A stretch of 5,975 nt of DNA from Anaerolineae bacterium. GTDB lineage: Bacteria; Chloroflexota; Anaerolineae; B4-G1; SLSP01. Shown here piece by piece: positions 2,165 through 5,975 of the stretch. Made by a program: the position numbers and the translations under genes. The notes under the pieces were generated by a model, which saw only the letters and a program-made list of their open reading frames with translations, searched no databases and had not been told where the DNA came from. The stretch is from assembly GCA_016934645.1 (NCBI GenBank), contig JAFGSL010000101.1, positions 1 to 5,975 of the forward strand, in the 5' to 3' direction. Within the stretch, counting starts at the first letter, position 1, and every line of letters starts with the position of its first letter.

Positions 2165-2341
2165 GTTCAGCCCCGCCGTGCCGTGGACCGCTGGTTTTGA
2201 CCCTGCTTACGCAGGTGGGGTCCTGCCGAACAACTCAGCCTTGCCCGAAGGCTACCGCGTTGTCGCTCTTGGACAACAGACCCCTCTTTATCAAAATGTT
2301 GGCTCAAAACCCCGTGTCGGTTTCACGTACACGGCAGGTGT
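2165..2341 (-). ncRNA. ssrS: Rod-shaped non-coding RNA, probable 6S RNA
   Basis: 6S RNA binds the sigma-70 RNA polymerase holoenzyme by imitating an open promoter. Seen here on the minus strand: a strong promoter (2348-2375), an RNA of about 175 nt from near 2341, and an intrinsic terminator (2117-2156). It contains no believable protein. The fold I can draw by eye has a closing stem 2338-2330 with 2180-2172 (9 bp), then 2327-2324 with 2185-2182, 2321-2318 with 2190-2187, and 2311-2304 with 2200-2193 (8 bp). An open central bubble follows (2303-2285 on the 5' side, 2216-2201 on the 3' side), whose 3' side holds a small hairpin (CCUGC, GUAA loop, GCAGG). An apical arm starts with 2284-2279 paired to 2222-2217 and ends in the hairpin AGCCUU-CGGGC-AAGGCU (2253-2237). 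Length, bubble and 3'-side bubble hairpin are those of 6S RNA. The identification rests on shape, not on a sequence match. Exact ends are estimates. Confidence 0.68.
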
Positions 2342-2347
2342 AGCGGT

Positions 2348-2377: not shown

Positions 2378-3445
2378 CTAAAAGCCGCCGGACAGCACAC
2401 GCCGGAGTATGCGCAACCAGTTCCCACTTAAAATCGCGTTGATGTCCGCATCCGCGTAGCCGCGCTCGACCAACAGTGCACCAAGCTTTCCCAAATCTGC
2501 ACTGGATTCCACACCCTCTGGGACCGCTTCCTGCCCAAATCCGCCATCGAAGTCCGAACCAATGCCAACAAAACGTGCGTCACCTGTAATCTGGCAGATG
2601 TGGTCGATAACCTCGACAAGGCGCGTGAGGGGCAAGCGCGCGGCGCCGGGACGCCAATCTTCATCCAGCATACGATTGAAGGGGATAACCCCTATCACAC
2701 CGTCGCAGTCGGCTATCCGGCGGATCAACGTATCGGGTAGCATGCGCAGGCGATCCACAAAAGCGCGTGGGTTGGCATGCGTTGCGACTACTGGGCCTGG
2801 ATAACGATCCAGAGCTTCGTAAGCCGCTTCCTCCCACAGATGGCTGAGGTCAAGCAGCAGGTTGTAATCCGCCATAGTCACAAGCAACTGCCGCCCGTCA
2901 TCGGTCAGAGGACCAGGCGCCGCGTTGCCGCCAGCATAGCGCGTCCCCATCGACCAAGTCAACCCAACGCCGCGCAGACCGCGTTCCACCCACCATCCTA
3001 CCTCTCCAGGCTCACGGATTGGCTCTGCGCCTTCCATCACGACAAAAATACCCAGTTGCGGCTGCTCCGTATCCCAGGAAGCCAACACCGCCTCCATATC
3101 AACAACTGTGTTTAGGAGAACTACCTGCTCGTTTTCGTCGGCCAGACGGCGATAGTAGTCGAGTTGTAGCACAGCGTAACGGTGAGCCTCTTGCGTGGTA
3201 TGGTAAGCTTGCGGTTCCCGTAAGCCTTTGAAATCCGGCGCGACGAAGAGGCTGCCACCCACAATCGCTACACGCCCTTCAAGGAGCGCCGGCACTGTAG
3301 TCATGCACATACCAGCCGGACTACCGGGCGGCGGTGTTGCAGCTTCAAGATGGCGAATCTCATTCACAGAGCGCAATAAATCACGCCCCAGAACCACGGC
3401 GTTGTAGGCCAGATCAAGATGCGCATCGACAAGAATAGGTTTCAT
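2378..3445 (-). CDS. Membrane dipeptidase family (M19) zinc peptidase
   Basis: This 355-residue protein belongs to peptidase family M19 (renal or membrane dipeptidase), whose members cleave dipeptides, including D-residue-containing ones, with a binuclear zinc site in an amidohydrolase-like barrel. Visible ligands and catalytic residues are H9 and D11 (VDAHLDLAYN), bridging E138 (VVMEGAEP), H202 (LDLSHLWEEA), H223 (VATHANPR) and D298 (GIGSDFDGGFG). Length is normal for the family. No signal peptide is visible, so it probably acts in the cytoplasm. The frame is open to 3538, but I choose the ATG at 3445: a GGAGG ends 4 nt before it, and MKPILVDAHLD is the usual family start. The extra N-terminus would be coded by a hairpin-rich intergenic stretch. 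The gene runs divergently from the FHA gene. No terminator separates its stop from the 6S-like RNA promoter. Confidence 0.9.
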   Translation of the reverse strand: MKPILVDAHLDLAYNAVVLGRDLLRSVNEIRHLEAATPPPGSPAGMCMTTVPALLEGRVAIVGGSLFVAPDFKGLREPQAYHTTQEAHRYAVLQLDYYRRLADENEQVVLLNTVVDMEAVLASWDTEQPQLGIFVVMEGAEPIREPGEVGWWVERGLRGVGLTWSMGTRYAGGNAAPGPLTDDGRQLLVTMADYNLLLDLSHLWEEAAYEALDRYPGPVVATHANPRAFVDRLRMLPDTLIRRIADCDGVIGVIPFNRMLDEDWRPGAARLPLTRLVEVIDHICQITGDARFVGIGSDFDGGFGQEAVPEGVESSADLGKLGALLVERGYADADINAILSGNWLRILRRVLSGGF

Positions 3446-3541: not shown

Positions 3542-3570
3542 TCGTGGATCTGGCGATCCGCTCTGAGCAT
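3542..3570. repeat. Dispersed GATC hairpin repeat, copy 2
   Basis: This is the same 29-nt unit as at 22-50, with two substitutions. GTGGATC (3544-3550) pairs with GATCCGC (3555-3561) around TGGC, followed by the identical tail TCTGAGCAT. The changed bases lie opposite each other and still pair as T-G, which suggests the folded form matters or that the copies spread as hairpins. It sits in the divergent gap upstream of the dipeptidase. Confidence 0.6.
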
Positions 3571-3687: not shown

Positions 3688-4419
3688 ATGGAGAATACTA
3701 TCCGGCGATTTCTAGTTGTGATCGAAGGGCCAAATGCGGGTCAAGCTTACCCGTTACAGGACATGGTCTGCACGATAGGTCGCACAGCCGATAACACGAT
3801 CGTCATCGACAGCACGCGCATATCGCGCCACCACACCCAAATTCGGCTAGCAGAAGGAACAACAGGGACCACTGCGATTGTCGAAGATATGGGTAGCACG
3901 AACGGCACATGGGTTAACCATCGCCAACTCACTGGCCCACACCGATTGATGCCGGGTGATGTCGTTACCCTGGCAGATTACATCACCTTCCAATATGAGG
4001 TTGAGGACGCATTATCCACAGCAAAACTTATACCAACGATGCCAGACAGCGCTACGCAGATGATGAACGACAGCACGCCTTATCCCCCTCCTCCTCCCCC
4101 ACCTGACTACGAAGAACCGTACCGTACGTACTCAGAGAGCCCCATCATACCACCACAACAACCCCTTATCCAATTTGATTCTGCGTCACAGACGGCGTCC
4201 GCATCACAACCCACGCCAGCACCGCAGCAAGCGTGGACAGCACCACCACCCCCACCGCCTGCAGCACCTCCAGCCAGACGCTCAAAATGGATCTATGTCA
4301 TCGTCGCCATTCTGCTTGTTTTGATTTGTATTTGCCTGGGCATAGCCATATACTTATGGTTTGCCCCAGTAACATTTTGGGAGAGCGTCTTCGATTTGTT
4401 CAATATACCCCTCCCCTAA
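3688..4419 (+). CDS. FHA-domain protein with proline-rich linker and C-terminal membrane anchor
   Basis: This 243-residue protein carries one forkhead-associated domain (about 7-105), a module that binds phosphothreonine peptides made by Ser/Thr kinases. The conserved FHA residues are present: G31-R32 (IGRTADN), S46-R47-H48 (SRHH) and N72-G73 (GSTNGTWVN). After the domain comes a low-complexity linker rich in Pro, Gln, Ser and Ala (about 112-198), with runs of seven and six prolines. One hydrophobic helix follows (about 201-226, WIYVIVAILLVLICICLGIAIYLWF) with a short tail. The pattern predicts a tail-anchored protein with the FHA domain in the cytoplasm, preceded by the positive patch ARRSK. 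No kinase or phosphatase gene is in the window, so the partner is unknown. The gene appears monocistronic, with its own promoter and a terminator at 4433-4470. FHA assignment is secure; role is open. Confidence 0.9.
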   Translation: MENTIRRFLVVIEGPNAGQAYPLQDMVCTIGRTADNTIVIDSTRISRHHTQIRLAEGTTGTTAIVEDMGSTNGTWVNHRQLTGPHRLMPGDVVTLADYITFQYEVEDALSTAKLIPTMPDSATQMMNDSTPYPPPPPPPDYEEPYRTYSESPIIPPQQPLIQFDSASQTASASQPTPAPQQAWTAPPPPPPAAPPARRSKWIYVIVAILLVLICICLGIAIYLWFAPVTFWESVFDLFNIPLP

Positions 4420-5091: not shown

Positions 5092-5109
5092 CGTGATAAT
5101 GATTCAACT

Positions 5110-5203
5110 ATCCTTGCGAAGGTTGCGCACAAACTGCGCGACACGATGATACCGTTTCCCGAGAGCGTTCATCTCGAAATCTACAAAAAACCTTCGCAAG
5201 GGT
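5110..5203 (+). other. Branched structured leader RNA, possible cis-regulatory element
   Basis: A perfect 13-bp inverted repeat (5112-5124 with 5189-5201) extends by T-G and A-T pairs to 15 bp (5110-5203). It encloses 64 nt with two further hairpins: GCGCA/TGCGC (5125-5129 with 5135-5139, loop CAAAC) and CGAGA/TCTCG (5160-5164 with 5172-5176, 7-nt loop). The result is a three-way junction of about 94 nt, with its closing stem ending 6 nt before the GGAGG. Each arm of the closing stem is also a near-palindrome (CCTT-GCG-AAGG and CCTT-CGC-AAGG) that could fold locally instead, so two exclusive states exist. I do not recognise it as a known riboswitch class. Confidence 0.6.
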
Positions 5204-5209
5204 TCCCAC

Positions 5210-5214
5210 GGAGG
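5210..5214 (+). promoter_or_regulatory. Ribosome binding site of the small membrane protein
   Basis: GGAGG with a short 4-nt spacer (ATAT) to the ATG at 5219. It sits immediately 3' of the structured leader, so folding of that leader could affect its access. Confidence 0.7.
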
Positions 5215-5218
5215 ATAT

Positions 5219-5428
5219 ATGAATGAACTGCTGAAAAAAGTCAGTGAGTTTCTGGCCCACAACAAAGGGCTTCCGGTGCTCATCGGCATCAGTATGGTGT
5301 TGTTGAACCTGGTCTTCAATCTGCTCCCACAATGGGCCATCATCGCTTGGCTGGCGGATACAGAGCTTTTCCTACATCTGGGTGTCATTCTCGGATTGTT
5401 CGGCATCCTACTCGGCGATGCACTTTAA
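5219..5428 (+). CDS. Small two-helix membrane protein of unknown function
   Basis: This 69-residue protein is not one I recognise. Residues 1-16 form a charged, probably amphipathic helix (MNELLKKVSEFLAHNK). Two hydrophobic stretches follow, about 17-37 (GLPVLIGISMVLLNLVFNLLP) and about 49-66 (TELFLHLGVILGLFGILLG), joined by QWAIIAWLAD. It ends GDAL. This predicts a hairpin in the cytoplasmic membrane with no cysteine or cofactor motif. Evidence that it is real: a good GGAGG, a promoter, a long structured leader and a sensible hydrophobicity pattern. It is divergent from bcp and lies 104 nt upstream of tmRNA, with no obvious terminator between, so readthrough into tmRNA is possible. Confidence 0.75.
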   Translation: MNELLKKVSEFLAHNKGLPVLIGISMVLLNLVFNLLPQWAIIAWLADTELFLHLGVILGLFGILLGDAL

Positions 5429-5532: not shown

Positions 5533-5956
5533 GGGGATGACAAGGTTTCGACGGGGAAGGCTGGTGGTGGGCTGCGAGTCGGGGAGGCTCCGTCTCCGTA
5601 AACCCAGGAGCAAACCTAAAATGCCAACACTAAGGCAAACAACTGGGTTCCCACGATGGCGAATACCTGGGCTACCGCCCCGGTCGCCGTCGCTGCGTAA
5701 GCAGAACGGACAACCCAAAACCTGATCGGGATATCCGGTCACGCCCCTCCAGCGTCTCGCAGGCACGTTGGAGTCCGGTGACATACCGTCTGCGCGCTAA
5801 CTTCCAGACGCCGATAAGGAAGTTCTAAGACTCCTCGGCTAGCCCGGATGCGGCGCGGTCGGCAGCGGCCCTCCGGGTAAAGCAAAATCGCCGACTACGC
5901 TCGTAGAAGCTCATCGTCGAATTCTTCGGACGCGGGTTCGATTCCCGCCATCTCCA
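5533..5956 (+). ncRNA. ssrA: tmRNA (one-piece ssrA)
   Basis: tmRNA with SmpB enters stalled ribosomes as an alanyl-tRNA mimic, then as an mRNA that tags the product for proteolysis. The acceptor stem GGGGATG (5533-5539) pairs with CATCTCC (5949-5955) and has G-U as third pair (5535-5953), the alanine identity element. The T arm is 5932-5948 with loop TTCGATT. Both conserved end blocks are present (GACAAGGTTTCGACGGGG; GACTACGCTCGTAGA with TTCGGACGCGGGTTCG). Pseudoknot 1 is clear: 5581-5585 with 5593-5597, and 5587-5591 with 5607-5611. The resume codon is most likely GCC at 5623, 11 nt after pseudoknot 1. The frame runs 25 codons to TAA at 5698, inside the loop of a hairpin (CTGC/GCAG), as in other tmRNAs. 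The tag begins ANTKANNW and ends ATAPVAVAA. CCA is not encoded: A is followed by CAC. Confidence 0.97.
5623..5700 (+). other. tmRNA tag-peptide reading frame
   Basis: Codons from GCC (5623) to the stop TAA (5698-5700) give a 25-residue tag with the hydrophobic C-terminus AVAA, of the kind read by ClpXP-type proteases. Two later in-frame alanine codons followed by Asn (GCA at 5635, GCG at 5659) would give 21 or 13 residues. The first is preferred because of the 11-nt distance to pseudoknot 1 and the ANT opening shared with tags such as that of Thermus. Confidence 0.7.
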
Positions 5957-5975
5957 CACAGGGCCGGCGGATTCC

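Follow-up and report, generated by a model that had tools for sequence, protein, structure and literature searches.

The DNA analysed here, called the window below, is a stretch of 5,975 nucleotides. An M19 dipeptidase gene lies on its minus strand at 2378-3445, and a gene for a metallo-beta-lactamase-fold hydrolase is found further downstream on the same strand, with 1102-2064 as its longest open reading frame and a probable start at 1938. A sequence-only reading of the window had placed an RNA gene between a dipeptidase and a hydrolase gene, and the protein family assignments confirm both neighbours. The gene between them (2166-2343, minus strand) is proposed to encode 6S RNA, the small RNA by which bacteria restrain their main RNA polymerase.

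Several other features of the window lie outside this gene. A tmRNA gene lies at 5533-5957 on the plus strand, and its Rfam match (5533-5959, 144.8 bits) is the only other one in the window at gathering score. The gene encodes the tag ANTKANNWVPTMANTWATAPVAVAA, and the 25-residue tags of the tmRNAs in two related loci (L002 and L005) are very similar. A long hairpin on the plus strand at 5110-5205 (CCTTGCGAAGGTT / AACCTTCGCAAGG) stands ahead of a hydrophobic 69-aa open reading frame at 5219-5428 on that strand. The fold of 5095-5215 has a z of -3.90 and no Rfam match at gathering score, and the corresponding leaders adopt other folds in L002 (z -2.12) and L005 (z -1.07). The 69-aa frame itself is kept in L002 (88% identical) and L005 (87%) and matched nothing in Pfam or PHROG. 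A 29-nt repeat with a small palindrome occurs on the plus strand at 22-50 and 3542-3570, the two copies being 93% alike. Further copies lie between the M19 and 6S genes of L002 (7118-7145) and ahead of the M19 gene of L004 (1687-1714). Short degenerate repeats fill 1015-1100, between a XerC-like gene and the hydrolase gene, and L002 has a longer repeat array (8466-8728) at the matching place.

Identity and distribution of the RNA

The Rfam 6S model (RF00013) scores 58.0 bits on the minus strand at 2343-2166 (E 6e-10), above its gathering score of 46.4. The score is moderate, and the alignment is full length, covering model positions 1-187 of 187 over a span of 178 nt. Running this covariance model was a check that the sequence-only reading had itself proposed, and its 6S assignment proves right because the match is full length and over gathering. 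That reading had also expected automated annotation to miss the gene. On this point it was mistaken, since a match over the gathering score would be found by standard annotation. The scan covered both strands of the window and no other Rfam family reached gathering on this stretch, so the better match to another RNA family that had been named as evidence against 6S did not appear. We found no features that place the RNA outside the 6S family, and a phage collection gave no blastn match to the RNA region. The stretch is very probably ssrS, the gene for 6S RNA, of a Thermoflexus relative within the Chloroflexota.

The Ms1 RNA of actinobacteria has the sigma-free core enzyme as its target. A comparable role for the window RNA, whose 6S-like rod would then bind a different form of the polymerase, could appeal to the description of Ms1 as structurally related to 6S RNA (excerpts of PMC9130861). 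It is very unlikely in view of the full-length 6S match over gathering and the lack of any other family at gathering. A passage of PMC7726162 credits Wehner et al. 2014 with finding 6S genes in Chloroflexi, the phylum of the window. PMC7726162 also gives 153-237 nt as the length range of 6S RNAs, and both the Rfam span and the length of about 176-222 nt implied by promoter and terminator fall within it. The 6S assignment is well supported, and the gene is an ordinary one. The analysis establishes a 6S gene with promoter, terminator and covariation for an uncultured Chloroflexota lineage, and the gene had been recognised from raw sequence; it adds little to existing knowledge, because Chloroflexi 6S is already in print.

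Kin of the window were sought with the M19 protein and not with the RNA, which gave 12 loci. The closest five (76-83% identity) come from Chloroflexota MAGs, one of them a Thermoflexus sp. Thermoflexus is a hot-spring bacterium, and the genus belongs to the Thermoflexia of the Chloroflexota. Judged by this neighbouring protein, the window appears to lie near the Thermoflexus MAG within Chloroflexota. Rfam was run on 11 of the 12 loci (L011 was left out), and four of them (L002-L005) carry a 6S match over gathering just downstream of M19, at 58.1-65.3 bits. The 11 loci represent 10 genomes, nine of which have a 6S match over the cut-off. Further scans were centred on G002, the genome of L002. 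Among genomes many of which may be incomplete, 6S exceeded the cut-off in 24/24 of its family (one match each) and 46/48 of its order, and in only 151/199 drawn from its class and 55/301 drawn from its phylum; the larger of these scans applied stricter filters, which lose weak matches.

Among the class genomes listed, six (G043, G076, G103, G123, G126 and G142) have two 6S matches at E <= 0.001, and the second matches are possibly second 6S copies. A related observation concerns the MAG G001 (UR.bin85), which holds the contigs of both L001 and L003, each with an M19 gene. At the contig end of L001, positions 3795-3851 match, at 89% over 57 nt, the promoter and 5' end of the 6S gene and are cut by the end. 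This may be either a second 6S copy or a strain mixture in G001, where Rfam counts one match.

Promoter, terminator and gene neighbourhood

A promoter-like site occupies 2375-2348 on the minus strand and consists of TTGTCA, a 16-nt spacer and TATTAT, with TG ahead of the second hexamer. The -35 hexamer (2370-2375) directly follows the M19 stop codon, and the extended -10 element TGG-TATTAT spans 2348-2356. A terminator-like hairpin at 2157-2116 on the same strand (-23.1 kcal/mol, z -8.19) is the probable intrinsic terminator of the 6S gene. Between 1950 and 2500 there are three promoter-like sites, compared with 0.4 +/- 0.7 in shuffled sequence, and four terminator-like sites, compared with 1.2 +/- 1.1. 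The extended -10 promoter and the strong terminator that the sequence-only reading had assigned to the gene are therefore both recovered. From the position of the -10, the transcript is predicted to start near 2341, the very end coordinate proposed earlier. With an end near 2120 it would measure about 222 nt; trimming to the 3' end of the Rfam match would leave about 176 nt. Both lengths agree with the 170-230 nt that had been anticipated.

These signals are kept within the family. In the 30 nt before the Rfam start, TGGTAnnAT is found 3-6 nt ahead of that start in all 25 family loci (window and duplicate L099 counted). A -35 with at least four of six consensus matches at a distance of 16-18 nt is present in 23 of the 24 family loci with enough flank. 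Terminator-like hairpins were counted, without a shuffle control, in 24/25 family loci (the exception is L093). Outside the family, TGGTAnnAT occurs in 11/82 loci and the looser TGnTAnnnT in 51/82, the latter being present in 4.4% of shuffled 30-mers. The -35 is found there in 24/82 loci and the terminator in 36/81, again as a count without a shuffle control. Taken by its sequence signals, the 6S gene stands alone and has a promoter and a terminator of its own, both conserved.

The neighbouring genes were surveyed in fetched flanks of at most 1.5 kb. A relative of the M19 gene lies upstream in 17 of the 24 family loci, and 20 of the 24 have a relative of the hydrolase gene downstream, on the same strand. 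The latter arrangement is what would be expected if the stretch, instead of being a separate RNA, formed the 5' region or a structured leader of the hydrolase gene. We rejected this highly improbable reading because a strong terminator, at 2157-2116 in the window and with terminator-like counterparts in 24/25 family loci, stands between the RNA and the hydrolase gene. The full 6S match also speaks against a leader, as do 22 further loci of the order, each chosen because it carries the RNA: within the fetched flanks a hydrolase relative (39-44% identity) accompanies it in nine. An M19 relative was seen in none of these 22.

The nine order loci with a metallo-beta-lactamase-fold relative near the 6S gene are L039, L102, L104, L105, L107, L110, L114, L116 and L117. 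Such a relative was also seen in 8/21 further loci (L022, L023, L024, L025, L028, L032, L037 and L040), of which L022 and L023 have identical 6S sequences, as do L025 and L028. All of these relatives outside the family are 39-46% identical to the window hydrolase.

Predicted fold and covariation

The minus strand from 2343 to 2164 is predicted to fold with a minimum free energy (MFE) of -76.4 kcal/mol (z -3.39), and 0/200 shuffles did as well. The MFE fold and the covariation described below give a rod of the 6S type, built of a closing stem, a central bubble and an apical arm. All coordinates that follow are on the minus strand. In the MFE fold, the closing stem pairs RNA positions 6-26 (2318-2338) with 154-172 (2172-2190). 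Above it P2, the helix below the bubble, is formed by a 5' strand at RNA 33-40 (2304-2311) and a 3' strand at RNA 144-151 (2193-2200). The 5' strand of the central bubble is 19 nt long (RNA 41-59, 2285-2303) and, by analogy with the family, is the presumed template for product RNA. The apical arm, with several compensatory pairs, takes up RNA 60-127 (2217-2284). On the 3' side of the bubble the sequence CCUGC-GUAA-GCAGG (RNA 129-142, 2202-2215) is predicted to form a hairpin of 5 bp. The 19-nt bubble strand and the GUAA-capped hairpin had both been described from the sequence by eye, and the computed fold reproduces them. The long rod with an asymmetric bubble, drawn in the same way, also stands as to rod, bubble and hairpin; the MFE departs from the drawing in adding a small hairpin within the 5' bubble, in which 43-45 pair with 50-52 (3 bp). 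The pairs of this additional hairpin are canonical in just 16, 33 and 63 of 104 sequences, and we dropped it because it is not conserved in the relatives.

Covariation was examined in 107 copies of the RNA, one from the window and 106 from other loci. The family contributed all of its 24 loci, and beyond it only the best-scoring loci of the scans were taken. Three identical copies (L023, L028 and L099) were dropped, and the remaining 104 distinct sequences were aligned with MAFFT without structure. The 57 pairs of the window MFE served as the structure under test, and column pairs were scored by background-corrected mutual information. Among 15,225 column pairs, MFE pairs make up 6 of the top 10, 10 of the top 20, 14 of the top 30 and 20 of the top 100, with about 0.1 expected by chance in the top 30. 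The strongest covarying pair (85/107) and 16 of the top 30 lie outside the fold. The test is not tree-based, and most of the relatives were picked by the 6S model, which favours paired stems. Individual pairs illustrate the exchange of bases: 93/100 is C-G in 66 sequences and G-C in 20, 80/112 is G-C in 55 and A-U in 28, and 79/113 is U-A in 21, A-U in 21, C-G in 20 and G-C in 10. The five pairs of the CCUGC-GUAA-GCAGG hairpin are canonical in 104, 104, 102, 101 and 98 of 104 sequences. Several pairs of the fold are formed in only between one and two thirds of the relatives, namely 70/119 (35/103), 33/151 (48/104), 63/124 (53/104) and 64/123 (66/104). Three stretches, GUUUUGAGCCAACA, CCCACCUG and CACGGCA, keep each of their bases in at least 90% of the 104 sequences, and RNA positions 34-40 of the P2 5' strand fall within the block GUUUUGAGCCAACA. 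The covariation of the stems sought as a check on the 6S assignment is therefore present, and it joins the Rfam score in supporting that assignment.

The claim that the stretch holds no credible protein also stands, since Pfam matched no family to the two open reading frames across the RNA (46 aa on the minus strand and 100 aa on the plus strand); each of the 25 family copies does have a stop-free stretch of 42-59 codons in one frame or another, and a coding or non-functional stretch that merely looks structured is nevertheless extremely improbable and was rejected, given these two frames, the E of 6e-10 for 6S, the covariation and the conserved promoter.

Release from the polymerase and comparison with known 6S RNAs

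6S RNA mimics an open promoter and takes up the holoenzyme that carries the primary sigma factor. Release comes about as the enzyme transcribes product RNA from the 5' bubble strand and P2 is unwound (both in excerpts of PMC8876501). By its family membership, the window RNA would likewise act as an open-promoter mimic that occupies and blocks the polymerase bearing the primary sigma factor. Once nucleotides are available again, the enzyme would transcribe a short product RNA from the 5' bubble strand; the presumed template GUUUUGAGCCAACA would yield a product of roughly 5'-(A)UGUUGGCUCAAAAC. This product would open the helix below the bubble, and the RNA would be freed. We infer transcription, polymerase binding and product RNA of the window gene in the same way. 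The freed 3' strand of P2 might then pair with the second UUUUGA in the bubble to form a collapse helix, which would help release.

A central bubble collapse helix has been reported for B. subtilis 6S-1 and A. aeolicus 6S, where it is inferred to form on release (excerpts of PMC8876501). In the window, the computed fold gives a possible helix of 7 bp when the template strand is held unpaired, with UUUUGAU (RNA 48-54, 2290-2296) and GUCAAAA (RNA 143-149, 2195-2201) as its strands on the minus strand. It is conceivable, if somewhat doubtful, that this pairing would aid release in the window species. Seven of the 24 distinct family rows have the predicted helix; shuffling each bubble 20 times gives an expectation of 0.2. 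These rows are the window and 6 of 23 relatives (L014, L015, L016, L018, L086 and L101). They are not independent, since five of the seven are close kin, and those of the five other than the window are 88-93% identical to it. In L088, L094 and L097 UUUUGA is present and the helix is not predicted. Outside the family it is predicted in 3/80 rows compared with 1.7 expected, and as modelled the collapse helix is not general. We regard it as unlikely that 6S RNAs with a near-invariant core and template differ, within this one family, in their ability to form the collapse helix, the release step having changed recently. If they did, they would offer a natural comparison of two ways of letting RNA polymerase go, with the inhibitory core fixed. 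This possible within-family difference in release is the sole part that a 6S specialist might pursue.

The window RNA shares with RF00013 the closing stem, the large 5' bubble strand and the apical arm, and the GAGCC at the edge of its bubble is present in the Rfam 6S consensus too. The canonical 6S RNAs of lactic acid bacteria carry a hairpin opposite the 5' bulge, as does B. subtilis 6S-1 (part of PMC8414754), and the window fold has the layout described there. Its architecture also agrees with the one given in PMC8876501. In B. subtilis 6S-1 the small hairpin of the 3' bubble is formed already in the free RNA (excerpts of PMC8876501). The window RNA resembles it in that a 3'-bubble hairpin of the free RNA (5 bp) and a collapse helix are both predicted, and differs in that the collapse helix is predicted in only 7/24 distinct family rows and 3/80 others. 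With E. coli 6S the window RNA shares the overall architecture and, presumably, promoter mimicry. In free E. coli 6S the 3' side of the bubble has essentially no structure, and a hairpin of 9 bp arises there on release (excerpts of PMC8876501), whereas the window RNA is predicted to carry its 5-bp hairpin on that side when free.
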